Assembly (NCBI GenBank): GCA_030425805.1
Contig: JAUHZC010000003.1
Location: forward strand, 188,701 to 252,700
Length of the DNA stretch: 64,000 bases
Source of the DNA: Alphaproteobacteria bacterium
GTDB lineage: Bacteria; Pseudomonadota; Alphaproteobacteria; JAUHZC01
Direction of reading: 5' to 3'
Part shown: one piece after another, positions 18,917 through 38,474 of the stretch
Layout: each line of letters opens with the position of its first letter
How positions within the stretch are numbered: the stretch's first letter is position 1
Notes under the pieces: generated by a model
Told to the model about the DNA's origin: nothing
Databases searched by the model: none
What the model saw: only the letters and a program-made list of their open reading frames with translations
Translations under genes and position numbers: made by a program

Positions 18917-20532
18917 CACCACTCCAGAATTATTTTTGTATTTTTGCTTTTAAAGCGTAAGACAATTACTTTTGTTGGAAGAACTTTTCCGAATTCAGGG
19001 GCATAGGACCCGTCTTTTATTGAAAATTCTCCTTCTAGCACTTTAAACAATAAAGTTTGATCACCACTCTTCAAAACAATCCCTTCTTTTGTATCAGAAA
19101 AGACAACATCCGGGTGTAATATAAATCGAGAGATAGCGGCAACTCTTCCTGTAACCGTATCAGTCACAATCAATGAGTTTTGTTTTAGTTCCCAATGTCG
19201 TGTATGTACGGGATTTCCTGGCAAGAGCTTATATCCGTTGTGTGAACAAGTAATATCATTTTCTGATACCTCTAAACCAAAAGGATATGCACGTTTGGCA
19301 ACGCGAAACCCACCCCAAACTTGACTTGAACTTTGACCTTCTATTTCTACAGTGGAATGGGAATATGTTTCACGCTCCTTTTGTCTCTGTGCGCTTAAAC
19401 CATAGCATGAAGTCCCTCCATTCACGATAAATCGCTTTAAACCTATTGAAAGCTCAAACGAGAGTGTGTCAGCATGAGCATGGCCTGGGAGGTAATCAGG
19501 ACCAACAGGACCAACATCTAGAAAAGCTCTCATTTTCCCAAGTTGAAGGCAAATATAGCCACTTTCCCTAAGGAGATTTATCTTTTTCTGAGGGGGGGAT
19601 GTAAAAGGTATATCTAATTCTTTCGTATAAGAAAAAATCCTTTCTGGACAAGGTGCAATGCCAAATGCCGCATCGTTAAATAGTGGGATCTCACCATCAG
19701 GATGGGACATTGCTTGGAGCCAACTGCACATTTGAGAAGCTACTTTTTCCCACATTTCCTGATGTGTCACTGGTATACAACCTTGGTAAATACGTGCAAT
19801 ATGAATTAGATCGAGAAGGTCTTCTAGAAAGATACTGTGATACATAGGAGAACGTTCAAAATTTCCCCCGTCTGGAAGAATTTGTTCTTCTAATTCATTT
19901 TTAACGATACCCAGGCCTGTTTCAAGCCATACTTTTGCATCACTTCCTTTGAAAAAGCATCCTGCAAAAATAAGAGCTTTGGCATTTGAGAAAAGGTGAT
20001 TACCCAAAATATGAAACTCAAGTTTCTGTGATAACCAGCGCACTTGAGTGGCTAAACTTTCTAATAAAAATGCGTTCGTTTCAGAATTAGCTATGGCCCA
20101 TTTTATCCAATTAACAACTCGTAATGATGTGGGATAAGGTTCCCAACCAACGCCTACACCTATGGGATTTTCTTTAATCCACCTCTGAATAAATTCAATA
20201 TGCCAACGTTTTCTGCGTTGCGCGTTGACAGCATTTAAATCATCAAAATAGTGAAGATTATAACACCAAAGTTTTTCAACATTCTGAGGATTCCATCCTA
20301 CATCCTTAAATTTATGCGCTACATTGAGGAAATCAAAAGTTGTCTTAGAAAAAAGACTTTGGTTTTTTTCTAAAAAATGTATGGGTTTTAACTGGATGTT
20401 TTTTTTTCTTAATGGAGGTGCTTGTAAATTCTTTACCTTTGGCTTGTATACATAATACCAAAGGCGCCACAAGATTTGCTTGGCCTTAAGATAGCGAAGC
20501 GTATGATAATATAGGAAGAGCTTTGAAAGCAT
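18916..20532 (-). CDS. Heparinase II/III family protein
   Basis: 538 residues. The N-terminal alpha-toroid contains LWCYNLHYFDDLNA and GVGWEPYPTSLRVVNW; the C-terminal beta-sandwich has PGHAHADTLSFEL, with the His residues expected at the active site of polysaccharide lyases. No signal peptide is evident, which is usual for this subfamily found inside exopolysaccharide loci. It may trim or edit uronic-acid-containing glycan. It lies 8 bases downstream of the two-domain oxidoreductase. A run of seven G (19592-19598) lies in the gene. Confidence 0.82.
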   Translation of the reverse strand: MLSKLFLYYHTLRYLKAKQILWRLWYYVYKPKVKNLQAPPLRKKNIQLKPIHFLEKNQSLFSKTTFDFLNVAHKFKDVGWNPQNVEKLWCYNLHYFDDLNAVNAQRRKRWHIEFIQRWIKENPIGVGVGWEPYPTSLRVVNWIKWAIANSETNAFLLESLATQVRWLSQKLEFHILGNHLFSNAKALIFAGCFFKGSDAKVWLETGLGIVKNELEEQILPDGGNFERSPMYHSIFLEDLLDLIHIARIYQGCIPVTHQEMWEKVASQMCSWLQAMSHPDGEIPLFNDAAFGIAPCPERIFSYTKELDIPFTSPPQKKINLLRESGYICLQLGKMRAFLDVGPVGPDYLPGHAHADTLSFELSIGLKRFIVNGGTSCYGLSAQRQKERETYSHSTVEIEGQSSSQVWGGFRVAKRAYPFGLEVSENDITCSHNGYKLLPGNPVHTRHWELKQNSLIVTDTVTGRVAAISRFILHPDVVFSDTKEGIVLKSGDQTLLFKVLEGEFSIKDGSYAPEFGKVLPTKVIVLRFKSKNTKIILEW

Positions 20533-20540
20533 TTGACTGG

Positions 20541-22658: not shown

Positions 22659-23425
22659 CGTAACAAACCATAACCTTTCTTTTCTTGGTAAGATGGATAA
22701 TTGATTAGCACAGCTTTGTATTTTCCCTTGTAAACAAAAAGACTCCCTGCGGCTGCTCCAACAACTCCAAACTCATCAAAAAGACTTTTAATGTGTAGGA
22801 AGTTACCTGCTCCTCCTAATACTGTTAAGGGAACGCGTATCCTTTCCTTAACAAGCTTGATCAAGTGATGGTCGTACCCCTGCATCATACCATCATTATC
22901 AATAGACTGCAGTAAAACCTCCCCCACTCCCTGTGTTTCTAACTCTTGGATCAAATCTATTAAATCAAGGTGAATTTTTTTATGACCACGGTGAGTCATT
23001 GCGGTATATTTTCTTAATAGACCCGTTTTTTTCACATTGACAACCCCAACAATACTCTGCCTCCCCACACGCTTGATGGCCTCAGGAATAAGTAAAGGAT
23101 TATCAATGTAGCTTGATCCTACCGCAACTTTTTCGACGCCAAGACTTATAATTCTCTCGATTTGATCAACACGTGTAATGCCCCCTGCATAACACATTGG
23201 CATGCGACATTCATTTGACATTCTTTCTATGAGGTCAAAATTTGGTTCAGATCCGCTAGGGGTTGCATCAATATCTGCAACAATAATCTCATCGGCTTCT
23301 TTTTCATTGAATATACGGATTGCGTTCAAAGGGTCACCGACATACTTTCCCTCACCAAATCTAATTGTTTTGGTTAGTCCACCTTCGTGTAATAAAAGGC
23401 ATGGTGTTATTCTTGGGCGTAACAT
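22655..23425 (-). CDS. HisF-like cyclase paralogue of an LPS amidination system (WbuZ/HisF2 type)
   Basis: 256 residues, TIM barrel of the HisF family with ITPCLLLHEGG at the start, DIDATPSGSEPN, AGGITRVDQIERI and LLQSIDNDGMMQGYD. The two catalytic Asp of histidine cyclases are not kept: CLDV reads CLLL and the AID segment reads VVNV. That argues against histidine synthesis and fits the paralogue that, with HisH, delivers ammonia to a WbpG-type sugar amidotransferase. It overlaps the oxidoreductase by 4 bases and follows hisH by one base. Confidence 0.82.
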   Translation of the reverse strand: MLRPRITPCLLLHEGGLTKTIRFGEGKYVGDPLNAIRIFNEKEADEIIVADIDATPSGSEPNFDLIERMSNECRMPMCYAGGITRVDQIERIISLGVEKVAVGSSYIDNPLLIPEAIKRVGRQSIVGVVNVKKTGLLRKYTAMTHRGHKKIHLDLIDLIQELETQGVGEVLLQSIDNDGMMQGYDHHLIKLVKERIRVPLTVLGGAGNFLHIKSLFDEFGVVGAAAGSLFVYKGKYKAVLINYPSYQEKKGYGLLR

Positions 23426-23426
23426 G

Positions 23427-24038
23427 CTAAGTCCCTATTTTTGAAAAATTTTTCAAAAGGCTAATCCCCCAGTGGTGGCTTTTCTCCGGATGGCACTGGA
23501 TACCATAAATTTTTTCCTTGTTAACTATGGAGGGGAAAGCGCCATCATAATAAGTCTTCCCTAGTATGTGGTCTGTATCGGCAGGAGAAAAATAGTAAGA
23601 GTGCAAAAAATAAAATTGAGGATTTTTAATGTCCCTCAAAATATCATCCTTTTTTTGAGCCTGGATTGTATTCCAGCCCATATGTGGTAAAGGATGACTG
23701 TTGTCCAAATTTGAGAATTTCTCTACTGTTCCTGGAATCCAACCCAACCCTGGTTTTTTCCCTTCAGCGCTACTATTTGCCATCATTTGCATGCCAACGC
23801 ATACGCCAACCACAGGAATTTTTCTGTCTAAAACAAGATCATCCAAAGTGTCACGCATGCCAGATTTATCCAATTTTTCCATGGCCCAATCAAAGGCACC
23901 CACACCAGGCAAAATAATTTTTGAAGCTTTTTGCAGGTCTTGTTTGTTTTGAGCCAAGAAAGCTCCAACATGAATCTCCTTGAAAATATTGAGAAAAGCC
24001 CGAACATTCCCAACGCCGTAATCAACAATCGCAATCAA
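23427..24038 (-). CDS. HisH-like glutamine amidotransferase subunit of the amidination system
   Basis: 203 residues, class I glutamine amidotransferase. VDYGVGNVRAFLNIF opens the protein, the nucleophile Cys is in VGVCVGMQMM and the His/Glu of the triad are in IQCHPEKSHHWG. It hydrolyses glutamine and channels ammonia to the HisF-like partner encoded next. It overlaps the PP-loop amidotransferase gene by 4 bases. The setting inside a glycan operon, not with other his genes, argues for a surface sugar role. Confidence 0.85.
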   Translation of the reverse strand: MIAIVDYGVGNVRAFLNIFKEIHVGAFLAQNKQDLQKASKIILPGVGAFDWAMEKLDKSGMRDTLDDLVLDRKIPVVGVCVGMQMMANSSAEGKKPGLGWIPGTVEKFSNLDNSHPLPHMGWNTIQAQKKDDILRDIKNPQFYFLHSYYFSPADTDHILGKTYYDGAFPSIVNKEKIYGIQCHPEKSHHWGISLLKNFSKIGT

Positions 24039-25159
24039 CGTTTTCCTCCGACTTCTTTTCCCAATAGCTTCAAAACGAAAGCACCAATTTTGTATATCCA
24101 GGCCTGTGATTTGTAATCTTCATAGCTCTTCTTCTCAATTTCTAGATATGAAAGAAGCTCTTGAGTCGTAATTTCTAATTTGTTAGCTACAAACTCAATT
24201 TCTTTTTTTATCTCTTTTTTATCATATGGAGGAGATTTAAGCTCTTCTAAAGCTTCGCTTCTTGTCATTTGATGGGTTAGAATAAGGCTGGAGAACTGTA
24301 CCTTTCTAACATCATAATTAAACCTCTCAGGAAGCCAGAAACTCTCATAAAATCGTGTAAAGCGAGATTCAAAGTGTTTCTGTGGATAAGGTTTCCAGCC
24401 AAATTCATTTTGAAGAGTTTGGATGGCATCCTTCTTAATATATTTAACAAAATCCAGAGGCCTTACAACCTGGATTCCTTTGATATATGGAAGGTATATT
24501 TTATGCCACAATATGGATGTTAAAGGATATTTTTTCAGAGGCTTATTCCCAAATTGGCGATGGATATCCCTTATTTGTCGAGCGTCTGATTGGTAATACA
24601 TCCAGTCAACGGGATTGCGAACACACTCCGTTGAGATATTTCCTCCCGTAAGGATATACTTTACATCATATTTATTTGCAAATTTATACATTGTTGCAAA
24701 AAAAGCATTGTCCTGAGGAGAGTCAATATGCGACACTCCTGATTTGAAAAAAGATAGCTGCAGATCTCGCATTTCTGCCCAATCTATTACCTCAGTAAAA
24801 AGATCAAGATTCAGCCCATCAACTAATTTTTCAATATTATTAACAGCAATTTGTGAATTCCAACCAGCATCCACATGAAAGACAAGCGGCCTCAAGCCAT
24901 ATTTTTTTACAGCTAGATAGAGAAGGTAAGAGCTGTCAACACCCCCACTCATGCCTATGATACAATCAAAATCTCGCTTTTCCCCATCTTTTTTAATTTT
25001 GGCTACAAGAGTTTCTAGTTTCCTCACCCCTTCTTCCCCTGTATCCCATCGAGGTAAGGTGTGATTCAAAAAATTATTACAATGATCACAAACTCCGTTC
25101 TCATCGAATACAATTTTTGGATCACTTGTATCCATCACACAATTGGAGCAAATTTTCAT
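24035..25159 (-). CDS. N-acetyl sugar amidotransferase, WbpG/PseA-like PP-loop protein
   Basis: 374 residues from the ATG at 25159, which directly precedes the conserved KICSNCVMDTSDP; a TTG four codons upstream is possible. N-terminal CxxC pairs (CSNC and CDHC) suggest a zinc site, and IIGMSGGVDSSYLLYLA is the ATP pyrophosphatase loop. In Pseudomonas, WbpG with HisH2/HisF2 converts an N-acetyl group of a UDP-sugar to acetamidino. The same three genes are contiguous here and begin the minus-strand operon that also encodes WecB and WecC. Confidence 0.87.
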   Translation of the reverse strand: MKICSNCVMDTSDPKIVFDENGVCDHCNNFLNHTLPRWDTGEEGVRKLETLVAKIKKDGEKRDFDCIIGMSGGVDSSYLLYLAVKKYGLRPLVFHVDAGWNSQIAVNNIEKLVDGLNLDLFTEVIDWAEMRDLQLSFFKSGVSHIDSPQDNAFFATMYKFANKYDVKYILTGGNISTECVRNPVDWMYYQSDARQIRDIHRQFGNKPLKKYPLTSILWHKIYLPYIKGIQVVRPLDFVKYIKKDAIQTLQNEFGWKPYPQKHFESRFTRFYESFWLPERFNYDVRKVQFSSLILTHQMTRSEALEELKSPPYDKKEIKKEIEFVANKLEITTQELLSYLEIEKKSYEDYKSQAWIYKIGAFVLKLLGKEVGGKR

Positions 25160-25470
25160 TGAGATATACAAACCTTTTAATCCCCTTTATACGAGATCTC
25201 AGGTGCATTTTCAATATGGAAGAAAACCTCCCCCGCGTCTGTAACGGTTATGCTGGGCTCTGTGGGAAGCATGGCGGGTGTTATGGTTACCAGGATTGTG
25301 AAGTTCCCAAAAGTTGCTTTGGAAGAACGAGATCCATGAGTCTAACCTTTCCGGATTATTTGAACAGATTCAGTCATGCCAAGGCAATTCTCGTAAGAAA
25401 CATCCTCTTCTTAGTGAGCTAGTGATGCTGCTTAATAATATTGTTGTAAGATCTATAATTCCTAATCTGT
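25160..25470. other. Intergenic stretch between glycan locus and accessory island
   Basis: No confident gene. It must hold the promoter for the minus-strand wbpG operon. A 68-codon open frame on the plus strand (25216-25422, ATG start) contains five regularly spaced Cys, but has a poor ribosome site and no recognised homologue. Another frame is also locally open, so the region may be eroded coding DNA. Confidence 0.35.
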
Positions 25471-26424: not shown

Positions 26425-28116
26425 ATGAATAGCTTAAAGGAAGAAAAGTCATTTAATATCTGTCACCATATCTGGGATCAGAAGTATCGTTATGGCGAAG
26501 AATCCTTAGACCAGACACTACAAAGGGTGGCAAAATTCTTAAGTCAAAATGAAAACAATAGTGCAGAGTGGTACCAACTCATGCTTGACGCCATGAGTTC
26601 GTTTGAACTTATACCTGGTGGACGTATTCTTTATGGTGCCGGCACTTCACGTGAAGCAACCTTAATGAATACATTTGTCATGGGGAAAATATCTGACTCA
26701 TTTGAATCTGTATTTGAAAATCTCTATGAAACAGCACTGACCATGCGCTCAGGAGGTGGAATAGGGATCAACATAAGTCATTTGCGTCCAAACGGAGACT
26801 TTATTGCAGGCCTGGAAGAAACGACAGCTGGACCTCTTCCATTTCTAGATCTTTGGAGTAGTATGTGTGGTTCAGTCATGTCTGGAGGCGCAAGGCGAGG
26901 AGCAATGATGGGCCTTCTTGCGTGTGACCATCCTGATATTTTTGACTTTATTTCACTGAAAAAAAGAGATAAATTCACTAATTTCAACTTCTCAGTATTA
27001 ATTACTGATGCCTTTATTAAAGCGGTTAAGACAAACGATACTTGGATCTTACAGTTTAAAGGTGAGCCCTATAAGGTTATCCAAGCCCGTGAGCTATGGG
27101 ATCGGGTAATGGAAAGTACTTACTACAATTCTGAACCTGGCGTTATTTTTATTGATCGCATTAATGAGCGTAATAATCTTTCCTATTGTGAAGAGATTGT
27201 CAGTACAAATTCATGTGGCGAACAGCCCATGCCTTTCTATGGTGCATGCCCACTTGCTTCAATTAATCTTGTTAAGCTCATACAGAATCCCTTCACGGAA
27301 AATGCTTTCTTCGATGAGACCAGGTTCAGGGAATTAATATCTATTGGTGTTCGGTTACTGGATAATGTCGTTGATCTTTCCCACTTGCCGTTACAGAAGC
27401 AAAGAGAGGCAGTGCTCAAAACACGAAGAATCGGACTTGGTATCACTGGCTTGGCTGATGCTTTGGCAATGATGAATATACGTTATGGCTCACAGCAAGC
27501 CTTGGATCTATTAGCTGATTGGATGCAACTTCTCAGAGATTATAGCTATATTTCTTCTTCTCAAGTTGCTCTTGAAAAGGGCCCATTTCCTCAATTTGAT
27601 AAGGATAAGTTCCTACGAGGTGGCTTTGCGAGGACTCTTCCTCAGTATATTCAAAAGCTGATTAGACAGCACGGTATTCGGAATGGAGTTCTCAACTGTA
27701 TCGCACCTACAGGAAGTATTTCTCTGTTTGCAAACAACGTCTCCTCTGGGATTGAGCCAATATATTCATTGAAGACGGAGCGAAAAATTCTCACGAAGCA
27801 AGGTGAGGAGGAAAACTTCATCCTAGAGGATTATGCCTACAAACTCTTTAAGCAAGCTCCAAGGGCAACAAGTACTTTTGTTACTGCTACAGAACTTGGA
27901 GTTGAGGAGCATTTACAAACTCAAGCTGTGGCCCAGCAATATATTGATGGCAGCATTTCCAAGACTATCAATTGTCCGGAAAATCTGAGCATGAATTCAT
28001 TGGAGGATGTTTATTTGCAAGCTTATGAGCTGGGTTGTAAAGGCTGCACAACCTATCGCAAATCAGAGGTAAGGGGTTCAATTTTTCAAGAGATAAAGGA
28101 AGAAGAATATGTCTAA
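26425..28116 (+). CDS. Class II (adenosylcobalamin) ribonucleotide reductase-like enzyme, divergent
   Basis: 563 residues aligning with NrdJ-type reductases: LIPGGRILYGAGT, SGGGIGINISHLRP, GARRGAMMG, STNSCGEQPMPFYGAC, APTGSISLFANNVSSGIEP, SKTINCP and GCKGCTTYR. The thiyl-radical Cys264 (NxCxE) and Cys275 are present. The N-terminal redox Cys, normally in LFNCFV, is Thr83 (LMNTFV), and the usual C-terminal extension with the swinging Cys pair is missing: the protein ends 22 residues after CTTYR. So it may use a B12 radical on a ribose or other polyol without normal turnover by thioredoxin. It opens the operon and overlaps the aminotransferase by 8 bases. Standard reductase function is the alternative. 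Confidence 0.8.
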   Translation: MNSLKEEKSFNICHHIWDQKYRYGEESLDQTLQRVAKFLSQNENNSAEWYQLMLDAMSSFELIPGGRILYGAGTSREATLMNTFVMGKISDSFESVFENLYETALTMRSGGGIGINISHLRPNGDFIAGLEETTAGPLPFLDLWSSMCGSVMSGGARRGAMMGLLACDHPDIFDFISLKKRDKFTNFNFSVLITDAFIKAVKTNDTWILQFKGEPYKVIQARELWDRVMESTYYNSEPGVIFIDRINERNNLSYCEEIVSTNSCGEQPMPFYGACPLASINLVKLIQNPFTENAFFDETRFRELISIGVRLLDNVVDLSHLPLQKQREAVLKTRRIGLGITGLADALAMMNIRYGSQQALDLLADWMQLLRDYSYISSSQVALEKGPFPQFDKDKFLRGGFARTLPQYIQKLIRQHGIRNGVLNCIAPTGSISLFANNVSSGIEPIYSLKTERKILTKQGEEENFILEDYAYKLFKQAPRATSTFVTATELGVEEHLQTQAVAQQYIDGSISKTINCPENLSMNSLEDVYLQAYELGCKGCTTYRKSEVRGSIFQEIKEEEYV

Positions 28117-29359
28117 AAAACTTGCCTTATTTGGTGGGGAACCCGTGATTCCAATCAGATACCGCACATTTCAACACCCTCGCATTGATGTCTCTCAAAC
28201 ATCGATCATGTCAGAGCTGAGCGATACAATGATTTCATATGAAGGTAATGGGATTACCAAACAGTTTGAAAGTGTGTTTGCAGACTTTTTTTCACTAGAG
28301 AATACTTTATCCTTCAACAGCGGGACAAACGCTTTATTTGCACTTTATTATGGAGCAGGTTTGAAAGAAGGGGATGAGGTGCTTGTGCCTGGGTTTACTT
28401 TTTTTGCCACAGCTACACCACTCTTTCTTCTAAAATGTCGACCAGTTCTTGTGGACTGTACTCCCAATGGAAATATGGATCCTGAGGATATAGTTAGGAA
28501 AATAACTCCCAGGACCAGAGCAATAGTTGTCACGCATGTTTGGGGTTTTCCCTGTGAGATGGACAAAATCCAGAAAATTTCTAAAGAGCATAATCTCCTT
28601 TTATTTGAGGATGCATCACATGCGCATGGAGCAACAATGGATGGCCGGCATGTTGGTTCTTTTGGTGATGGTGCTGCATGGAGCCTAGGAGCGAAGAAGC
28701 TTCTTACTGGTGGGCAAGGAGGCATACTCGCAACGCCACATAGAGGGATCTTTGAAAGGGCATTGCTTGTAGGACATTATAACCGAAGGGCTTTGTCACA
28801 AGTAGAAGACATAGGTCTTTTTCCTTTTGCAGAGACAGGAACAGGGCTTAATCTGCGGATGCATCCTTATGCTGCTGCAACACTACTAGAGCAGATGAAG
28901 TCTTACGGTGATCAGCTTGCTGAAAGACGTGAAACAGCGGAGATGTTGATTGAGGGAATAAAATCTATTCCTGGACTAGAGACTCTTCCCGTTGATCCTC
29001 GCATGGACCCTTCTTGGTATGCTTTCCCGCTTCAATATAATAAGAAAGAGTTTAAAGGGGTTAGCAAAGAAACTTTTGTAAAAGCATTACAGGCAGAAGG
29101 GGCACTGGAAGCTGACATTCCAGGCACAACCTGTCCGCTCAATCGTTTTTTTGCATTCCAGGTGAATTTCACAGGTCAGAAAGTTCCTAATAGTGATCTC
29201 CAACCCACAAATCAGAGCTTACCCGCGTGTGACAAATACAGTGAGGTTTTTCTCAAATTGCCAACATGGTATGGGCCAGACAGATTACAATATACAGAAT
29301 ATTACATTAAATCATTAGAGAAAGTGGTGAAGAACTGTGATGAACTCAAGAACATATAA
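28109..29359 (+). CDS. DegT/DnrJ/EryC1/StrS-family PLP aminotransferase
   Basis: 416 residues. N-terminal LALFGGEPV is typical of the StrS group. PLP residues are visible: LSFNSGTNAL, Asp168 in LFEDASHAHGA, and the Lys of WSLGAKKLLTGGQGG (197 by alignment). VPGFTFFATATPL and LRMHPYAAA also match the family. These enzymes transaminate ketosugars, cyclitols or related natural-product intermediates. Flanked by a ribonucleotide-reductase-like gene and a Nudix gene with overlapping reading frames, it is probably part of a small-molecule pathway, not the O-antigen locus. Substrate unknown. Confidence 0.88.
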   Translation: MSKKLALFGGEPVIPIRYRTFQHPRIDVSQTSIMSELSDTMISYEGNGITKQFESVFADFFSLENTLSFNSGTNALFALYYGAGLKEGDEVLVPGFTFFATATPLFLLKCRPVLVDCTPNGNMDPEDIVRKITPRTRAIVVTHVWGFPCEMDKIQKISKEHNLLLFEDASHAHGATMDGRHVGSFGDGAAWSLGAKKLLTGGQGGILATPHRGIFERALLVGHYNRRALSQVEDIGLFPFAETGTGLNLRMHPYAAATLLEQMKSYGDQLAERRETAEMLIEGIKSIPGLETLPVDPRMDPSWYAFPLQYNKKEFKGVSKETFVKALQAEGALEADIPGTTCPLNRFFAFQVNFTGQKVPNSDLQPTNQSLPACDKYSEVFLKLPTWYGPDRLQYTEYYIKSLEKVVKNCDELKNI

Positions 29360-30251
29360 AGTTGAAAATGAGCCCAGTGAGCAAGGGTTCCTTTCTTTGT
29401 TGGATGAATGCAATCACTTCAACCTTGAAGAGTTCTCTTCTGTGAATTATGCAGGCTTTCCAATAGGGTATGTGCACAAGGATTTTGTACACTATGTCTC
29501 TCAAAATCCAATGTTTCTTCTTGATAAAGGTAATCTACATATTGTGGAAGATTATCACGATAGCCAAAAGCTAACAGATGCTTTCAGCAAAATAAATAGA
29601 GAGTTAGAAGACAATGGCATAATTAGAAACTCACATGGCGGTGAAGAATATAATGTGGTTCATAGTGGTTTCACCAATCCTTTGTTTAAAATAAGCCGTG
29701 CTGCAGCAGGTTTTTGGGGAATCCGTGTTTTTGGAGTTCATGTCAATGGTCTTTCAGAGAGAAATGGGCAATGGCACATGTGGGTTGCTAAGAGAGCGAA
29801 ATCGCGTTCAGCTCCAGGTTTACTGGATCACATGGTTTGCGGTGGTTTGGATTCAAGTTTATCAATCCAGGAAAACCTCATTAAAGAGGCACAGGAGGAG
29901 GCAAACATTAATGCACAGGATATTATCAAGGCATCCCCTGCGGGCATGGTTTCATGTTGGATACAGACAGGCCATTTCCTAAACCGATTTACTCCTATTA
30001 TTTACGATCTTGTATTAGATAAAGACTTTGAGCCAGTGAATAAAGATGGTGCAGTGGAGTCTTTTTCAACCATGGCACTCGATGACATATGCAAGCAACC
30101 TGAAAAGATCGCTTTGTTCAAAGTCAGTGCTTACCCTGTGCTTGTCAATCTTTTGATAAGGCACGGATACATAGAGGCTGATCATCCAGAATATCTCAGT
30201 CTTTGCGCCTCATTGAACAGGGGCTTTATCGATATAATTAACACTAAATAA
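29340..30251 (+). CDS. DUF4743-Nudix protein (thiamine pyrophosphokinase-like Nudix group)
   Basis: 303 residues from ATG 29340; a GTG one codon upstream is possible. The N-terminal half resembles DUF4743 (FPIGYVHKDFV) and the C-terminal half is a Nudix domain with GGLDSSLSIQENLIKEAQEEAN, whose REUxEE core appears as KEAQEE, as in this subgroup. Relatives in fungi and plants hydrolyse damaged thiamine diphosphate derivatives. Here it overlaps the aminotransferase by 20 bases, so a role on a pyrophosphate-containing intermediate or house-cleaning for the pathway is inferred. Confidence 0.78.
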   Translation: MNSRTYKVENEPSEQGFLSLLDECNHFNLEEFSSVNYAGFPIGYVHKDFVHYVSQNPMFLLDKGNLHIVEDYHDSQKLTDAFSKINRELEDNGIIRNSHGGEEYNVVHSGFTNPLFKISRAAAGFWGIRVFGVHVNGLSERNGQWHMWVAKRAKSRSAPGLLDHMVCGGLDSSLSIQENLIKEAQEEANINAQDIIKASPAGMVSCWIQTGHFLNRFTPIIYDLVLDKDFEPVNKDGAVESFSTMALDDICKQPEKIALFKVSAYPVLVNLLIRHGYIEADHPEYLSLCASLNRGFIDIINTK

Positions 30252-30265
30252 GAAAAGGAAAGAGT

Positions 30266-30829
30266 ATGAAGAAATATGCTGTTCTCACAAATGATATGCA
30301 AGTTGCATTTGCCAATAAACATGAAGAGCGTAGAGACGCTGTTCAAAATTTTCTACCAGGATTTTTGAAATTTATTAATTCAATGCGTTCACATGGTATT
30401 CCTATCATTCACTTACAACTAGTGATCAGTGATGATGATCCCCGCTCAAAAGAAAACTATGGCCCTTTCCCACCTCTTGTGGAGGGCTCAAAGGGTGTGC
30501 AAATTCTTCCAGAGTTGTGGGATGAAAAAGATACTATTGTCGTAAAAAATAAAGATAGTGGGTTTTTTGAAACAGATTTGGATGAAAAGCTTAAAGAGTT
30601 AGGTGTGGATACCTTAATCATCTCTGGGATGCAAACTCAGATTTGTGTTCAAACGACTGCGGCTGACGCACACTTTCGCGGATACAATGTAATTGTTCCA
30701 CCTGAGACAGTCACATCTACCCGTGGTGAAGATACAAAGCGCTCCTTGGAGTGGATGGAAAGCTATTGTGCAAAAATTATTCCCAGCCAAGAGATTATTA
30801 GCAAGTTCGCCCAAAATGAAGATATTTAA
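30266..30829 (+). CDS. Isochorismatase-family cysteine hydrolase
   Basis: 187 residues, single domain. The catalytic triad of the family is visible as Asp10 (LTNDMQVAF), Lys93 (IVVKNKDSGFF) and Cys126 (MQTQICVQTTAADAHFRGY). Members hydrolyse amides, ureas, vinyl ethers or carbamoyl groups, including nicotinamidases, N-carbamoylsarcosine amidase and biuret hydrolase. It lies 14 bases after the Nudix gene and 10 before hypE. A carbamoyl or nitrile-derived amide substrate would suit the neighbours, but this is inference. Confidence 0.85.
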   Translation: MKKYAVLTNDMQVAFANKHEERRDAVQNFLPGFLKFINSMRSHGIPIIHLQLVISDDDPRSKENYGPFPPLVEGSKGVQILPELWDEKDTIVVKNKDSGFFETDLDEKLKELGVDTLIISGMQTQICVQTTAADAHFRGYNVIVPPETVTSTRGEDTKRSLEWMESYCAKIIPSQEIISKFAQNEDI

Positions 30830-30839
30830 GGAGATCGAG

Positions 30840-31859
30840 ATGACTGAAAATAATGCAATCATACTTGACCATGGAGCAGGGGGTTTACTCAGCAAGAAAC
30901 TTCTTGATGACATTATTATACCTATTTTGGAGCCCGTGTATCTTGGAAAAATGGAAGACTCAGGGATAATCTCTTTGAATGGCTCACAAGTCGCTATTAC
31001 GACAGATAGTTTTGTTATTGATCCTATATTTTTTCGAAATGGAGATATAGGAAAATTGTCCGTTTGTGGGACAGTCAATGACATTGCTGTCTCTGGGGCA
31101 AAGCCTGAATGTATCAGTCTTTCATATATTCTAGAGGAAGGATTCCCGATAGATAAATTGAGGAAGATAACGGAATCAATAGTTACTACTTGCCAGGAAG
31201 CATCTGTTTCAATCATCGCGGGTGATACAAAAGTAGTTGGTAAGGGTGAGGCTGATCAGATTTATATCAATACGACTGGATTTGGGACATTTTCTTCTGA
31301 TCGCTCGCCTTTAAGCCTTTCTAAAATAAGTGACAATGACGATGTTATTGTTTCCGGTCATGTAGGAAATCATGGTATCCACATTCTTTCAATGAGGGAA
31401 GGGTTGGGTTTTGAAAGCCGTGTATTGAGTGACTGTGCTCCTTTGAATAAAGCGATTCAAGCAATCCTTGGTAAATATGGAGATGATATACACTATATTC
31501 GTGACTTAACGCGTGGCGGGCTTGGGAGTATTTTTAATGAAATATCTAATGATACTCAGAAAAATATAACCTTAAAAGAAGCTGACATTCCACTTCAACA
31601 TGAGACGGTGATGGCTGCAGAAATGCTGGGTGTCAGTCCCCTTTATTTAGCTAACGAAGGGAATATTTGTATCATGGCTAATCCACGTATAACTGAAAGC
31701 CTTCTCCAAGATTTGCAGGCCATGGAATACACAAAGCATGCGGCATTGTGTGGCAAGGTCTATAAGAGTGAAGATCCAAAGGTTTTATTTCAGCAAGAGG
31801 ATGGGACCTTATCTATCCTTGACTTCCTTAAAGGAGCAGAATTGCCGAGGTTGTGCTGA
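30840..31859 (+). CDS. hypE: HypE-like carbamoyl dehydratase
   Basis: 339 residues from the ATG at 30840, placed after AAGGAG; a longer frame upstream is not supported. In hydrogenase maturation HypE receives a carbamoyl group on its C-terminal Cys from HypF and dehydrates it with ATP to a thiocyanate. All key parts are seen: LDHGAGGLLSKKL, TTDSFVIDPIFF, GDIGKLSVCGTVNDIAVSGA, AGDTKVV, RDLTRGGLG and the C-terminal PRLC ending in Cys339. The stop overlaps the hypF start (TGATG). No hydrogenase or other hyp gene is nearby, so the cyano group may go elsewhere. Confidence 0.93.
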   Translation: MTENNAIILDHGAGGLLSKKLLDDIIIPILEPVYLGKMEDSGIISLNGSQVAITTDSFVIDPIFFRNGDIGKLSVCGTVNDIAVSGAKPECISLSYILEEGFPIDKLRKITESIVTTCQEASVSIIAGDTKVVGKGEADQIYINTTGFGTFSSDRSPLSLSKISDNDDVIVSGHVGNHGIHILSMREGLGFESRVLSDCAPLNKAIQAILGKYGDDIHYIRDLTRGGLGSIFNEISNDTQKNITLKEADIPLQHETVMAAEMLGVSPLYLANEGNICIMANPRITESLLQDLQAMEYTKHAALCGKVYKSEDPKVLFQQEDGTLSILDFLKGAELPRLC

Positions 31860-34171
31860 TGACAGGATGTGCAACCTACAAAATTGTTGTGGAAGGTAAG
31901 GTTCAAGGAGTAGGATTTAGGCCCTTTATCTATGTTCTAGCTACAGAAATGGATCTTAAGGGAAATGTGAGTAATAACTCTAACTCAGTTGTTATTACGG
32001 CCCAAGGAGCTACTGAGCAGCTCGATAAATTTGTTGAGACAATCAAGGAGAGGAAGCCGCCTGCAAGTTCGATTTCTAAACTTGATTACGTACAGGTTTC
32101 TAATGAGGAACAGTATGAAAACTTTCAAATTATTGATAGCCAAACGGTATCTGAGAAAGGTATTCCAGTAACAGCTGATCTTGTAGTTTGTCAAGAATGC
32201 CTCACAGAGATGTTTGAGACCTCGAATCGGCGTTACCTGTACCCTTTTATCAACTGCACAAATTGTGGTCCTCGTTACTCAATTATTCATGATATTCCGT
32301 ATGATAGGCCCAACACGAGCATGTCATCATTTAAGATGTGCGATGATTGTAGGAAAGAATATAATGACCCTTTGAATCGGCGTTTCCATGCCCAACCAAT
32401 ATCTTGCTGGAAATGTGGGCCAGAGTTACGGCTTTTGAATAAGGACTTCCAGACAGTTCCATGTGATGACCCTATTGCGGAAGCCGTTTCATATTTAAAG
32501 CAAGGACATATCATTGCTGTCAAAGGGATTGGAGGGTACCATCTCATAGCTGATCCATTAAATGAAGCATCTCTAGAGACGCTTCGACTCAGGAAAAAAC
32601 GAGACCAGAAACCATTTGCATTAATGTGCTATGGCTTAGAAGAGTGCGAAGAGATCTGTGTTGTTCGCTATACGCATGAACGGGAACTGTTAGAGAGCAT
32701 TGAAAGGCCGATCGTTCTTTTGCCTAAGCGTTCAGATCACCCCTTGCCTGAAAATGTAGCCCCGGGCAACACGAATTTTGGTGTTATGTTGCCCTATACG
32801 CCCATTCATGTCTTGCTAATGAAGGGGTCATTTAAATATCTTATTTGCACCAGTGCAAATATCAGTGATAACCCCATTATTCACAATGAAGACAGTGATG
32901 ATTATAGGGAACTTACCAATCTTTGTGATTATGTTTTGACTCATAATCGGGGAATCGTGAATTTTTCAGATGATAGTATTGTGAAGTGTATTATTGAAGA
33001 TAATTCGCCTCGACATCACATCATTCGCCGTTCTCGAGGGTATATCCCAGATTTATTTGAGTTTATGCATGAAGGACCACCACTGCTAGCTGTTGGTGCA
33101 GAGTTAAAAAATACGGTCAGTCTGACGAAAAAGAATAAGATTTTTATGAGTCAGCACGTGGGTGATTTAAAAGGTGTGGGTTTGTATAGTTGCTTTGTCG
33201 AGCTTATCAACAATATGCGTACTTTTTTTGATCAAAAACCTGAAGCGGTTGTTTGTGACCTGCATCCAAATTTTATCAACACTACTTTTGCAGAGAAATT
33301 AGGAATTCCTGTTCTTCGTTGCCAACACCACCACGCCCACATGAATGCATGTATGGCTGAGAATAGTCTGGAAGGACCAACAATTGGTGTTGTCTTTGAT
33401 GGTATGGGGTTTGGTCTTGATGATAAAATCTGGGGTGGGGAGTTCTTGGTTGGAGATTATAAATCTTTTGAAAGGTGTGGTCATTTTGAATATTTCTCCT
33501 TACCGGGTGGAGACAAGTGTAATAAAGATATATCACGTACGCTTTTTGGGCTTTATTATTCATATTTTCAAAATAAAGACCTTCTTTTATATTTAAATAA
33601 TGAATTGTTTTCCATGCAGCAATTTGAAGTTTTTGAAAAAATGGTAAAACAAAATATCAATTCTCCCTTAACCTCTAGCTTGGGAAGAATATTTGATGCT
33701 GTAGCCGTGCTGATTGGCTTGCGCGCCCATGCTAACTTTGAGGGTCAAGCCGCGATAGAACTAGAACAATTAATTTGTAAGAGTTTTGATGGCATGCAGC
33801 ATGGTTTTTACAATCACTCTATAACAAATGCAGGCAAGCTTCCTTTTCAGATATCTGTTAAAGAGTTTCTCTCCGAGATTATAGAGGATGTAAAGACTGG
33901 CACCCCGAACTCACTAATCAGTGAGAAATTTCATAATATGCTCATCAATATTGTCGTTGATGCTTGCCGAGTCATACGCCAAAAGCACACTCTTAATGAT
34001 GTCACATTGTCAGGTGGATGTTTCTTGAATACGTACCTCCTTGAAGGATGTATCCATCAGCTGACAAAAGAAGGGTTTCATGTCTACTACCACCAAAGAT
34101 ACCCAACCAATGATGGCGGTATCTCTTTGGGGCAGGCTGTACACGGCTTGTCAGTTCTTGGAAGTGGTTGA
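31859..34171 (+). CDS. hypF: HypF-like carbamoyltransferase
   Basis: 770 residues from the ATG at 31859, overlapping the hypE stop by one base. HypF uses carbamoyl phosphate and ATP to make carbamoyladenylate and loads HypE. All domains are intact: acylphosphatase (VQGVGFRPF, residues 15-23), zinc-finger region with CxxC pairs (CQEC, CTNCGPRYS, CDDC, CWKCGP), YrdC-like domain (AVKGIGGYHLIADP), and Kae1-like domain (HHHAHMNACMAEN, GVVFDGMGFG, LSGGCFLNTYL). It is followed by carA and carB, which would supply its substrate. No degraded motif was found. Confidence 0.94.
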   Translation: MTGCATYKIVVEGKVQGVGFRPFIYVLATEMDLKGNVSNNSNSVVITAQGATEQLDKFVETIKERKPPASSISKLDYVQVSNEEQYENFQIIDSQTVSEKGIPVTADLVVCQECLTEMFETSNRRYLYPFINCTNCGPRYSIIHDIPYDRPNTSMSSFKMCDDCRKEYNDPLNRRFHAQPISCWKCGPELRLLNKDFQTVPCDDPIAEAVSYLKQGHIIAVKGIGGYHLIADPLNEASLETLRLRKKRDQKPFALMCYGLEECEEICVVRYTHERELLESIERPIVLLPKRSDHPLPENVAPGNTNFGVMLPYTPIHVLLMKGSFKYLICTSANISDNPIIHNEDSDDYRELTNLCDYVLTHNRGIVNFSDDSIVKCIIEDNSPRHHIIRRSRGYIPDLFEFMHEGPPLLAVGAELKNTVSLTKKNKIFMSQHVGDLKGVGLYSCFVELINNMRTFFDQKPEAVVCDLHPNFINTTFAEKLGIPVLRCQHHHAHMNACMAENSLEGPTIGVVFDGMGFGLDDKIWGGEFLVGDYKSFERCGHFEYFSLPGGDKCNKDISRTLFGLYYSYFQNKDLLLYLNNELFSMQQFEVFEKMVKQNINSPLTSSLGRIFDAVAVLIGLRAHANFEGQAAIELEQLICKSFDGMQHGFYNHSITNAGKLPFQISVKEFLSEIIEDVKTGTPNSLISEKFHNMLINIVVDACRVIRQKHTLNDVTLSGGCFLNTYLLEGCIHQLTKEGFHVYYHQRYPTNDGGISLGQAVHGLSVLGSG

Positions 34172-34198
34172 TTGTATAGGTATATATTGTGAGGCTAT

Positions 34199-35299
34199 AT
34201 GAAGATAAGATTGGAAAATGGCCAGGAATATCGGGGGGAATCATTTGGGTACCCTAAGAATGCCATTGGAGAGGTTGTTTTTAATACTTTGATGTGTGGA
34301 TATGTGGAGGCTTTAACAGATCCCTCTTATCATGGTCAAATTCTGCTATTAACTTACCCCCTTCAGGGGAACTATGGGGTTCCTGATTCGCTATTTGAGT
34401 CGCGTCGTATTCAGGTAAGTGGACTTTTAATAGCGAATCATGCCTTGTACCCAGCACACTTCAAACATGCTCACACTTTGCAAGAGTGGCTTTATTCTCA
34501 AAAAATTCCAGCGTTGCATCAGGTCAATACACGTGCTCTTACCCAGTATTTACGGGAAAAGTCAACGATGAAAGGGTTGCTTGTCAGCCAAGAAGGAGAG
34601 TATCCACAGGCAGCTGAAGTTGATACGATTATTTATAGTGAAGAAGAGTGCGTTTTTCACAGTGGTGATCTGAAAGTTCTTGTCATTGACATAGGCTGTA
34701 AAAGAAATATTATCAGATCGTTATGTTGCCGAGGAGTGACAGTGATTTGCATCCCATGGTGGAAAGATTGGGAGCAGTATATACCGGAGTGTAATGGAGT
34801 TGTTATCTCCAACGGTCCTGGTAATCCGAATCAATATGTAGAGCTAATAACGCGTGTGAAGGGTTTAATAACCCTAGATATGCCGATATTTGGCATCTGC
34901 CTCGGTCATCAACTCCTTTCTCTTGCAGCAGGGGCCGTCATAGAGAAAATGGCGTATGGTCATCGCTCGGTAAACCAGCCCGTAAGGGATGAGAGAACAA
35001 GAAAGTGTTATATAACATCTCAAAATCATGGCTACATGGTTGTTAAAGAGACTTTGCCGGAAGATTGGATGCCATGGTTCACAAACTTAAATGATTATTC
35101 AAATGAGGGAATGTATCACAAGTATAAACCAATTCGCTCTGTTCAGTTTCACCCCGAAGCTTCCCCAGGTCCAAATGATACAGCTTTTCTGTTTGATGAA
35201 TTTGTTTACGATATGAACGCATATGGTCGTACCATTTCAGTTTCTTCAAAGTATAAGGCTATAGAAAATCAAGTTTATGATTTGGAAATAAGAAAGTGA
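34199..35299 (+). CDS. carA: Carbamoyl-phosphate synthase small subunit, divergent type
   Basis: 366 residues. The N-terminal domain begins MKIRLENGQEYRG and has EVVFNTLMCGY and ALTDPSYHGQILLLTYPLQG. The glutaminase triad is intact: Cys234 (FGICLGHQ), His318 and Glu320 (SVQFHPEASPG). The wording of the N-terminal domain is nearer to animal CPS1/CAD than to E. coli CarA, which has EILTDPSYSRQIVTLTYP. It makes ammonia for CarB, encoded 13 bases downstream. Position directly after hypF suggests a dedicated carbamoyl phosphate supply, although it may also serve pyrimidine or arginine synthesis. Confidence 0.92.
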   Translation: MKIRLENGQEYRGESFGYPKNAIGEVVFNTLMCGYVEALTDPSYHGQILLLTYPLQGNYGVPDSLFESRRIQVSGLLIANHALYPAHFKHAHTLQEWLYSQKIPALHQVNTRALTQYLREKSTMKGLLVSQEGEYPQAAEVDTIIYSEEECVFHSGDLKVLVIDIGCKRNIIRSLCCRGVTVICIPWWKDWEQYIPECNGVVISNGPGNPNQYVELITRVKGLITLDMPIFGICLGHQLLSLAAGAVIEKMAYGHRSVNQPVRDERTRKCYITSQNHGYMVVKETLPEDWMPWFTNLNDYSNEGMYHKYKPIRSVQFHPEASPGPNDTAFLFDEFVYDMNAYGRTISVSSKYKAIENQVYDLEIRK

Positions 35300-35312
35300 G
35301 AGCAATTAATTA

Positions 35313-38300
35313 ATGATAAGAAAGGATCTGCCAAAAAAAGTACTTGTATTGGGTTCGGGAGGGCTTCAAATCGGTCAAGCTGGTGAGTTCGATTACTCTG
35401 GTAGCCAGGCCTTAAAAGCTTTGCGGGAAGAGGGAATAGAAACCGTCCTTATTAACCCAAATATTGCGTCCGTTCAAACCGATTGGGACATGGCTGATGC
35501 TGTGTATTTCCTTCCTTTGGAATCCAACTTTATTGAAGAAGTTATTCAAAAAGAGAATGTTGATTCGATTCTCCTTAGTTTTGGAGGGCAAACAGCCCTG
35601 AATTGTGGATTAGAACTTGATCGGCAAGGGATATTAGAGAAATATAATGTGAAAGTTCTAGGGACATCTCTTCGTACAATCGACTTAACCGAGGACCGTA
35701 AACTTTTCGCTTTAAGCCTAGCGGAAATAGGTGTGCCTGTAGCTCAGTATGAGTTTGCCTCCTCAGTTGCAGAGGCTCTTGTTGCTGCAGAAGGGATAGG
35801 CTTCCCTGTTATGATTCGCACTGCATACACTTTAGGTGGTAAAGGGTCAAGTATAATCAAAAACAAAGAAGAATGCCTAAAGTATGCCGAAAAAGCACTA
35901 AAAAATTCATCTCACGTTCTTGTTGAAGAGTGCCTCGCGGGTTGGAAAGAATTTGAGTATGAAGTGATGCGTGACGGACAAGATAATTGTCTCATTGTCT
36001 GCAACATGGAAAATATTGACCCTATGGGTATTCATACAGGAGATTCAATTGTTGTTGCCCCCTCCCAGACACTTGATGATGTTGAGTATCAACGCTTAAG
36101 AGATATTGCTTTGAAAACAGTGAGGCATCTGGATATTGTGGGAGAGTGTAATATTCAGTTTGCCCTTGATAAGGAGTCCCGCACATTTAAGGTTATTGAG
36201 GTGAATGCGCGTCTTTCACGCTCATCTGCCCTTGCATCAAAGGCTACAGGCTACCCGATTGCTTACGTAGCTGCGAAGGTTATTCTAGGCTACGAGCTTG
36301 CTGAAATTAAGAATGCTATGACAGGTGTTACAACAGCATTCTTTGAGCCAGCTATGGATTATATTGTTTGTAAGGTTCCTCGATGGGATTTTGATAAGTT
36401 CCCGGATATTGTTCCTCTTATTGGAAGTGAAATGAGGAGTATTGGTGAGGTAATGTCTATCGGTCACTCCTTCGGGGAAGCAATCCAGAAAGCCCTTCGA
36501 ATGGTGGGTTTGAATTACAATGGGCCGTCAGCCTTACAAGCTGTTAATGACTACAGTGTGCCGAGCCCAACACGAATATTAAGCATCTTTAAAGCTCTTA
36601 AAGGGGGCGTGGCATGTTCTGTACTCGCAGAAGCTACGGGTATTGATCAATTCTTTCTCAATGAAATGAAGGTAATTGTGAACACTGAATCAGAGATTGT
36701 AGATAAAGGGAACTTAGATAGATTTGATGCTTTGTTTTTTAATAAAATCAAGAAATTAGGGGTGTCTGATGAACGAATTGGTGACTTAGTCAATGCACCT
36801 GTACAACAGGTTATCAAACGAAGGCAAGAGCTAGGTGTAAGGCCATATCTTCTACAAATTGATACCCTTGCCGCCGAATACCCCGCAGTAACCAATTTCA
36901 CTTACTTGAGTTATGGCGCATCCCAGCATGACTCAACAGGTCCACACAAAAAGGAGCGTGTTCTTATCTTGGGGGCTGGTTGTTATCGAATAGGGTCAAG
37001 TGTTGAGTTCGATTGGTGTGCAGTGAACTGTTCTAAAGCTTTAAGACAAATGGGGTATGAGACAATATTGTTAAACTGCAACCCTGAAACGGTTTCGACT
37101 GATTTCGATAACTGCGACGTTCTTGTTTTTGATGAAATCTCTGTTAGTAATATTCTCGAACTATGTGAGCTTTATAACCCCATTGGTGTTGTGGTTTCGA
37201 TGGGAGGGCAGGTGCCAAATAACCTTGCTAAAGATATGGAAGAAAATGGCATCCCAATTTTAGGTACCCCACCGCACTCAATTAACCTTGCTGAAGATCG
37301 CTCGAGGTTTTCAACGTTGCTCAATAAACTAGAGATTGATCAGCCACAATGGTGTGCTGTTAATACTCTAGAAGATATAAGGAAAAATCTCGATATAATC
37401 GGGGGTTTCCCTGTTTTAGTAAGGCCTTCGTTTGTTTTATCAGGTACCCGTATGGGGGTTGCCTATAACGAGGGGGATTTGCAACACCTTGTAAGTCAAG
37501 CCCAGATAGTGTCCCCAAAGCATCCGGTAATTCTTTCAAAGTTTGAAAAAAACGCTAGAGAAATCGAATTTGATGCTGTGGGACAAAATGGTGAAATAGT
37601 AGTCTTTGCATTTGCTGAGCATATCGAAAACGCAGGTGTGCACTCTGGCGATGCGACTTTAGTTTTGCCAACGTTTAGTCTGAGCCAAGCATTACAGAAG
37701 AGAATGCAGCGTATTGCATCTTCCATTGCAGCTTCTTTAAAAGTCTGTGGGCCATTTAATATACAATTTTTGATTAAAGATGAATCTGTGAAGGTTATAG
37801 AGTGTAACTTGAGAGCTTCTAGGAGTTTGCCTTTTGTATCAAAATCCGCAGGCGCAAATTTTGTAGAAATTGCAGTTAAGGCAATGCTTGGCGAATCGAT
37901 CCCTCGTCAAGCTAGCTCCATTGAAAGTAACTTACCTTACTTTGCGGTGAAGTCCCCCCAATTTTCATTTGAGAGAATGCCCGGCGTTGATCCCTGTTTG
38001 GGTGTTGAAATGGCTTCTACGGGAGAGGTTGCTTGCCTGGGGCAAAGCTTTGAAGAAGCTTTACTTCTTTCAGTCTTATCTAGTGGTTTTGTTGTGCCTA
38101 CCCAGGGTGTGCTGCTGGATGTGTATGAGGATACAATACATAGCTCTGAGCTGATTACTAATCTCCTTTCACTGGGTTTGGCTCTTTATACAGTGGGAGA
38201 ACATAATGTGTATTGTGCTGAACCCATAGAAGAAATAAAAGCATTAGAGATGATGAAAGATGGAGAGATCGACCTCGTCATAAGTCTTGCAAGTAAATAT

Positions 38301-38474
38301 GATCTATCAAGGTCGGAGCGGGGATGTACACTGCGCAAAGCATCTCTTGATGCGAATACAAGCTTTATTTCAAATGTACAGTTAGCAGAAAAAATCATTG
38401 ATTCATTGATTTATTATAAGTTTAATAAATTGAACTTTTCTTCATGGTCAAATTATTTAAATTTAATGGAATAG
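35313..38474 (+). CDS. carB: Carbamoyl-phosphate synthase large subunit, divergent type
   Basis: 1053 residues, full length with two ATP-grasp halves. It forms carbamoyl phosphate from ammonia, bicarbonate and two ATP. VLVLGSGGLQIGQAGEFDYSG, PNIASVQT, CNMENIDPMGIHTGDS and IEVNARLSRSSALASKATGYP mark the first half; the second begins VLILGAGCYRIGSSVEFDW. IEVNARLSRSS and the SGGLQIGQAGEFDYSG wording resemble the eukaryotic CPS group instead of the usual bacterial IEMNPRVSRSS. The C-terminal allosteric domain is short and poorly conserved. It closes the operon. Confidence 0.93.
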   Translation: MIRKDLPKKVLVLGSGGLQIGQAGEFDYSGSQALKALREEGIETVLINPNIASVQTDWDMADAVYFLPLESNFIEEVIQKENVDSILLSFGGQTALNCGLELDRQGILEKYNVKVLGTSLRTIDLTEDRKLFALSLAEIGVPVAQYEFASSVAEALVAAEGIGFPVMIRTAYTLGGKGSSIIKNKEECLKYAEKALKNSSHVLVEECLAGWKEFEYEVMRDGQDNCLIVCNMENIDPMGIHTGDSIVVAPSQTLDDVEYQRLRDIALKTVRHLDIVGECNIQFALDKESRTFKVIEVNARLSRSSALASKATGYPIAYVAAKVILGYELAEIKNAMTGVTTAFFEPAMDYIVCKVPRWDFDKFPDIVPLIGSEMRSIGEVMSIGHSFGEAIQKALRMVGLNYNGPSALQAVNDYSVPSPTRILSIFKALKGGVACSVLAEATGIDQFFLNEMKVIVNTESEIVDKGNLDRFDALFFNKIKKLGVSDERIGDLVNAPVQQVIKRRQELGVRPYLLQIDTLAAEYPAVTNFTYLSYGASQHDSTGPHKKERVLILGAGCYRIGSSVEFDWCAVNCSKALRQMGYETILLNCNPETVSTDFDNCDVLVFDEISVSNILELCELYNPIGVVVSMGGQVPNNLAKDMEENGIPILGTPPHSINLAEDRSRFSTLLNKLEIDQPQWCAVNTLEDIRKNLDIIGGFPVLVRPSFVLSGTRMGVAYNEGDLQHLVSQAQIVSPKHPVILSKFEKNAREIEFDAVGQNGEIVVFAFAEHIENAGVHSGDATLVLPTFSLSQALQKRMQRIASSIAASLKVCGPFNIQFLIKDESVKVIECNLRASRSLPFVSKSAGANFVEIAVKAMLGESIPRQASSIESNLPYFAVKSPQFSFERMPGVDPCLGVEMASTGEVACLGQSFEEALLLSVLSSGFVVPTQGVLLDVYEDTIHSSELITNLLSLGLALYTVGEHNVYCAEPIEEIKALEMMKDGEIDLVISLASKYDLSRSERGCTLRKASLDANTSFISNVQLAEKIIDSLIYYKFNKLNFSSWSNYLNLME

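Follow-up and report, generated by a model that had tools for sequence, protein, structure and literature searches.

The window considered here, a 64,000-nucleotide stretch of an alphaproteobacterial genome (GenBank assembly GCA_030425805.1, contig JAUHZC010000003.1, positions 188,701 to 252,700), carries a complete HypE-HypF gene pair at positions 30840-34171, immediately preceded by a gene for an isochorismatase-fold cysteine hydrolase (ICH). HypE and HypF are themselves already known. Judging from the sequences, however, it is probable that this pair forms a thiocyanate on HypE and that ICH, in place of HypC-HypD, hands the cyanyl group on to a small molecule, such that ICH, HypE and HypF together would constitute a cyanyl-donor cassette. 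The recurrence of the pair with its third enzyme in many unrelated bacteria points to a so far unstudied means of attaching a cyanide-derived group to small molecules.

In hydrogenase maturation, HypF uses carbamoyl phosphate to S-carbamoylate the C-terminal cysteine of HypE, HypE dehydrates the adduct to a thiocyanate, and HypCD receives the cyano group (PMC12134894, PMC6594144); an infrared study assigns the HypE species as an isothiocyanate (PMC4506123). An earlier note on this DNA had described the window pair as complete, with a one-base junction and every catalytic feature in place, and this description stands. HypE (339 aa) starts at an ATG behind an AAGGAG site, ends in ...GAELPRLC with Cys339 as its terminal residue, and scores 397.5 bits against the NCBIfam hypE equivalog TIGR02124 (cut-off 251.6), while HypF (770 aa) scores 769.8 bits against the hypF equivalog TIGR00143 (cut-off 466.1). 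Both frames are intact, and base 31859, an A, is common to the TGA stop of HypE and the ATG start of HypF. Pfam places five families in HypF (acylphosphatase, two zinc fingers, YrdC, HypF_C and HypF_C_2), with both Kae1-like subdomains present, and the residues common to hydrogenase-type HypE and HypF are retained in the two proteins. The claim of purifying selection on these motifs rests on their conservation across many loci.

The host genome comprises 1.41 Mb in 12 contigs, is 91.2% complete, and is the only genome of its order in the comparison set. The earlier note had seen no other hydrogenase-related gene in the window, and genome-wide hidden Markov model searches, positive in control genomes, extend this by returning no match to HypC (PF01455), HypD (PF01924) or the NiFe large subunit (PF00374); these three were the families covered, HypA and HypB not being searched for genome-wide. 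Neither the HypC-HypD scaffold nor the large subunit by which a NiFe-hydrogenase maturation system would be recognised was thus found, and the hydrogenase-maturation reading was dropped for this genome.

Signatures and trees set these proteins apart from their hydrogenase counterparts. The C-terminal motif of hydrogenase HypE is PR(I/V)C (PMC4506123), and all ten hydrogenase HypEs chosen for contrast end in PRIC, whereas 71 of 74 cassette HypEs end in PRLC, the three exceptions being broken frames. The earlier note had raised the prospect that the window copies would group with other hydrogenase-free operons, and in IQ-TREE phylogenies they do: the cassette HypEs form one clade with 100/100 support, throughout which the hydrogenase-type HypE residues, ATP-site motifs included, are kept, and the cassette HypFs form one clade save for a single nested hydrogenase HypF from Paraburkholderia (L033). 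The latter belongs to a hydrogenase operon of Paraburkholderia aromaticivorans (L033:9974-12304) whose HypE is of the hydrogenase type, a mix that suggests exchange of HypF between cassette and hydrogenase systems. The membership of the window HypE in a hydrogenase-free clade, together with the lack of a HypCD/hydrogenase set in the genome searches, supports the view that the cyano-forming chemistry is likely in use.

The cassette is widely distributed. A survey of plasmids by tblastn with the window HypF found that several of the top matches occur without a hydrogenase and adjoin an isochorismatase-family gene. Such hydrogenase-free cassettes were seen on plasmids of Rhizobium WSM2304, S. clavuligerus, Citrobacter, Salmonella and Streptomyces NBC_01361, the last within a nonribosomal peptide synthetase (NRPS) cluster, and on Paraburkholderia nodulation plasmids the cassette lies several kb from a separate hydrogenase operon. 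A subsequent plasmid search with ICH returned ten records at 43.7-51.6% identity, among them the inspected cassette records, with the next match at 33%. Scanning GTDB genomes with an alignment of ICH then yielded 74 loci, distributed over Streptomyces, Nocardia, Sorangium, Enterobacteriaceae, Photobacterium, Psychromonas, Paraburkholderia, Cohnella, Solirubrobacterales and a Bacteroidetes metagenome-assembled genome (MAG). The scan patterns were drawn from ICH and not from HypE or HypF, so co-occurrence with HypEF was not built in, although the seed alignment nevertheless came from HypEF-linked genes. ICH, HypE and HypF are all present at 65 of these 74 loci, on a single strand at 62, the median gaps being 56 and 15 bp. 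The nine incomplete loci comprise three with HypF alone (two of them, L041 and L049, on short contigs), one with a broken HypE and five with neither gene. Gene calls on the high-GC loci came from a GC-frame scheme and are rough. In Lonsdalea and Raoultella (L098, L101), HypE is broken and HypF broken or missing, as in decaying cassettes. ICH homologues without local HypEF (L046, L099, L107, L109, L110) come from gut Firmicutes MAGs, Gilliamella and Erwinia, and L107 has a HAD-type neighbour like that of the enterobacterial cassette. Among 398 sampled genomes of the window's phylum, ICH was matched in the window alone, which makes the cassette rare there, and a near search of complete E. coli genomes for the cassette of an Escherichia sp. 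(L084) found none. A viral origin was considered and dropped: scans of viral contigs were without ICH, and matches there to the ribonucleotide reductase (RNR)-like and DegT proteins described below were remote only.

The third partner belongs to the isochorismatase-fold cysteine hydrolases by its Pfam match (PF00857), by fold search and by its Asp-Lys-Cys triad (Asp10, Lys94, Cys127). An AlphaFold2 model (pLDDT 94) shows the fold seen in 3hb7 and in the triuret and biuret hydrolases. Across 75 ICH sequences Cys127 and a second cysteine, Cys168, are invariant, and Cys168 is absent from both hydrolase structures whose alignments cover its position. In seven sequences Asp10 is replaced by Gly and Lys94 by Arg, both cysteines being kept. 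Their number fits that of the Nocardia loci L090, L096, L097, L104, L105, L106 and L108, to which they may correspond.

The real unit in the window is larger than the HypE-HypF pair, since eight genes run on one strand from 26425 to 38474, with intergenic gaps of -23 to +27 bp by called starts and about 10 bp between ICH and the ATG of HypE. In order, and with the transporter that follows them, they are:

26425-28116, plus strand: NrdJ-like (class II RNR-like) protein, 563 aa; PF02867/PF00317, TIGR02504 over cut-off
28109-29359, plus strand: DegT/DnrJ/EryC1-family pyridoxal phosphate-dependent aminotransferase, 416 aa; PF01041, 222.7 bits
29337-30251, plus strand: DUF4743 and Nudix hydrolase, 304 aa; PF15916, PF00293
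30266-30829, plus strand: ICH, isochorismatase-fold cysteine hydrolase, 187 aa; PF00857, 120.5 bits
30840-31859, plus strand: HypE, with C-terminal PRLC
31859-34171, plus strand: HypF carbamoyltransferase
34199-35299, plus strand: CarA, glutamine-hydrolysing carbamoyl-phosphate synthase small subunit; TIGR01368, 389.5 bits, over cut-off
35313-38474, plus strand: CarB, carbamoyl-phosphate synthase large subunit; TIGR01369, 1320 bits
38515-39501, minus strand: EamA-family transporter, candidate exporter, converging on CarB; PF00892

The two genes downstream of HypF bear directly on the supply of its substrate. CarA retains the glutaminase cysteine motif GICLGHQ, and no second CarB was found in the genome. 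Genome-wide searches in which 14 of 14 controls were positive gave no match for aspartate/ornithine carbamoyltransferase (PF02729) or for PyrF, orotidine monophosphate decarboxylase (PF00215), so that neither carbamoyltransferase that would mark a pyrimidine or arginine enzyme was found, and such a main role for CarAB was dropped. No O-carbamoyltransferase was found in the genome either, leaving HypF as the sole consumer of carbamoyl phosphate found there. The C-terminal MGS domain, the allosteric domain of E. coli CarB, is degenerate in the window protein (12.8 bits against a cut-off of 24.1, compared to 77.4 for E. coli CarB). Because CarB is unique, no other consumer was found and the MGS domain is degenerate, CarAB would appear to act as supplier to HypF, free of the control tied to pyrimidine and arginine synthesis.

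Under the cyanyl-donor reading, CarAB would make carbamoyl phosphate from glutamine, bicarbonate and ATP, HypF would activate it and S-carbamoylate Cys339 of HypE, and HypE would use ATP to dehydrate the S-carbamoyl group to a thiocyanate (or isothiocyanate). These steps are probable in view of the intact family-defining features of the proteins, and their equivalents are established for hydrogenase HypEF. ICH is then read as a new acceptor or transfer partner because HypCD is absent and ICH is nearly always alongside; this is the simplest reading, and a cysteine nucleophile in an oxyanion-stabilising pocket would suit attack on the thiocyanate carbon. In place of HypC-HypD, ICH would take or direct the cyanyl group, probably by Cys127 aided by Cys168, and a small-molecule nucleophile would receive it to give a cyanamide, nitrile, thiocyanate or derived group. 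The adjacent, genome-unique CarAB without another consumer found and the conserved third gene both strengthen the case that the cyano-forming chemistry is in use. It is more speculative to suppose that the acceptor depends on the host, with actinomycete cassettes lying in NRPS or ATP-grasp clusters, and the best guess for the window would be an aminated nucleotide, because an RNR-like radical enzyme, a sugar-type aminotransferase and a Nudix protein adjoin the cassette.

Several observations weigh against the cyanyl-donor reading, which must be set beside its competitors. The hydrolase triad is intact at 68 of 75 ICH loci, which leaves room for hydrolysis; the five homologues without HypE and HypF named above, some on short contigs, have none of the proposed partners locally; cassette neighbours vary so much among hosts that no single acceptor fits; and up to 9% of the window genome may be missing. 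The intact triad would be expected if ICH were an ordinary hydrolase, with the cassette making or removing thiocyanate, cyanate or cyanide, or with ICH proofreading stray HypE adducts. We regard this as quite improbable, given that the triad is altered at seven loci where both cysteines persist, that the second cysteine is cassette-specific and missing in the two aligned hydrolases reaching its position, and that the cassette is found in NRPS and ATP-grasp clusters with exporters. It is also conceivable, if unlikely, that a carbamoyl rather than a cyanyl group is delivered, with HypE as an S-carbamoyl carrier and ICH handing the carbamoyl group on to an amine or alcohol. S-carbamoylation needs HypF alone, and the closest characterised fold relatives of ICH act on carbamoyl-type substrates (triuret, biuret, ureidoacrylate). 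A plain carrier would nonetheless be expected to lose the hydrogenase-HypE residues, ATP-site motifs among them, that cassette HypEs keep, and enzymes of the TobZ/CmcH type perform simple O-carbamoylation without HypE (PMC6594144).

Iron on HypCD is the sole acceptor established for the HypE cyano group (PMC12134894), and the group might go to the metal centre of an enzyme other than NiFe hydrogenase, but this is very unlikely: no homologue of the HypC/HypD scaffold was found in the genome, and no metalloprotein family recurs among cassette neighbours, where secondary-metabolite genes and exporters recur instead. Slimmer still is the chance that HypEF is left over from a lost hydrogenase system, or serves one encoded in the 9% missing from this 12-contig assembly. 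Three genes, those for HypC, HypD and the large subunit, would need to be missing simultaneously. HypE falls in the PRLC clade and not the hydrogenase clade, with frames and motifs intact. Cyanyl transfer by ICH remains the reading that we favour.

The nature of the acceptor in the window may be approached through the RNR-like protein that opens the operon. By alignment, it retains the equivalents of the thiyl-radical Cys264, the second reducing Cys275, Asn262 and Glu266, whereas Thr83 occupies the first reducing cysteine position, which is Cys in 31 of 31 canonical relatives compared, and the C-terminal zinc-finger tail of about 190 residues is missing. The reducing cysteine pair and C-terminal dithiol tail of a functional RNR are accordingly not found in it. 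The window genome holds a second RNR (G000:C8:133186-135324, in a frame of about 1245 aa), presumably the housekeeping reductase; with this present, and with the Cys225 equivalent and the tail gone, a housekeeping role for the operon protein is unlikely. The Bacteroidetes MAG locus L041 repeats the RNR-like, DegT, HypF and ICH genes. Its HypF is sister to that of the window (100/98), its DegT protein aligns with 46% identity, and its RNR-like protein shares the Thr and the NSCGE and CPLAS motifs; the Nudix gene is absent from its gene list. A further 576-aa RNR-like protein, tailless and with the same Thr-for-Cys change, is encoded at L158:3307-5037 (minus strand), where its neighbours are cobalamin-synthesis genes (CbiX, CbiC, methylases); that genome has a full-length RNR as well. 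No HypEF lies near it, so tailless Thr-type RNR-like proteins are not confined to the cassette.

The normal RNR reaction passes through a 3'-keto-2'-deoxynucleotide, which the cysteine pair reduces (PMC8465479). Because that pair is incomplete in the window protein and the dithiol tail is missing, the 3'-keto-2'-deoxy nucleotide could be its end product, formed without reductant from a ribonucleoside diphosphate by what would be an adenosylcobalamin radical dehydratase. The DegT enzyme might then aminate C3', the Nudix protein remove phosphate, and HypEF with ICH cyanylate the amine. We offer it tentatively, as a rather doubtful proposal, that the product of the operon is a 3'-amino-2',3'-dideoxynucleoside derivative of the cyano or guanidine type. 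If this is true, the RNR-like protein would have a radical activity that is new among enzymes, and a chain-terminating nucleoside would receive a nitrogen-carbon group by a novel route.

Elsewhere in the operon, the DegT gene overlaps the RNR-like gene by 8 bp and the Nudix gene overlaps the DegT gene by 23 bp. The EamA transporter may be part of the operon unit, and EamA genes also occur at cassettes L030 and L061. Upstream, on the minus strand at 18916-25171, runs a set of sugar or surface-polymer genes encoding a heparinase II/III-like protein, a fused dehydrogenase, HisF- and HisH-like proteins (by eye) and a WbuX N-acetyl sugar amidotransferase (327 bits). In other hosts, the cassette of L036 sits inside an NRPS cluster, and actinomycete NRPS clusters surround it at L036, L043, L047, L048, L051, L054, L060, L111 and L112. 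A serine hydroxymethyltransferase-like gene (family F9) directly follows HypF in several of the actinomycete NRPS loci.

To our knowledge, the iron of NiFe hydrogenases is the only target known for enzymatic cyanation from carbamoyl phosphate. If HypE does give its cyano group to small molecules, the cassette would represent a modular, portable route from a central metabolite to nitrile, cyanamide and guanidine-type groups. It is carried on plasmids and in secondary-metabolite clusters in several phyla, where it is currently annotated as hydrogenase maturation, and an isochorismatase neighbour plus a HypE ending in PRLC provides a simple sequence tag for separating cassette pairs from hydrogenase genes. 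The window genome is a clean case, with HypF the only consumer found for the sole carbamoyl-phosphate synthetase found. Among open papers, the subscription journals lying outside the search, none was found on isochorismatase-family proteins with HypE/HypF chemistry, nor on the ICH-HypE-HypF cassette, the PRLC signature or a dedicated CarAB. A candidate Streptomyces cluster for a ribosomally synthesised and post-translationally modified peptide, reported from decRiPPter, has hypE and hypF near an ATP-grasp ligase without other hyp genes, and a novel function was suggested there in passing (PMC7794033); an isochorismatase-family partner, the PRLC signature, phyletic spread, the CarAB link and a mechanism are not described in that work.

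Like 3hb7, the triuret hydrolase TrtA and the biuret hydrolase BiuH, ICH has the isochorismatase fold and an Asp-Lys-Cys triad, but these fold matches share at most 30% identity with it, and the extra invariant Cys168, the altered triad in 7 of 75 sequences and the fixed HypEF partnership are its own. The RNR-like protein is about 50% identical to alphaproteobacterial class II NrdJ enzymes and keeps their thiyl Cys, second reducing Cys, Asn and Glu, differing in the Thr and the lost tail. By gene logic only, the operon resembles the puromycin/ADG aminonucleoside pathways (Pur10, Pur4, Pur7, Pur3), which likewise employ a 3'-ketone, an aminotransferase and a Nudix pyrophosphohydrolase (PMC11641026); the RNR-like protein would stand in for the Pur10 dehydrogenase, and HypEF, ICH and CarAB are additional. 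Finally, the window pair shares the domain set, conserved residues and C-terminal Cys of [NiFe]-hydrogenase HypE-HypF and exceeds the same equivalog cut-offs, yet it differs in the missing HypC, HypD and hydrogenase matches, in ending HypE with PRLC rather than PRIC, in its separate HypE clade, and in having an ICH neighbour and a CarAB of its own.

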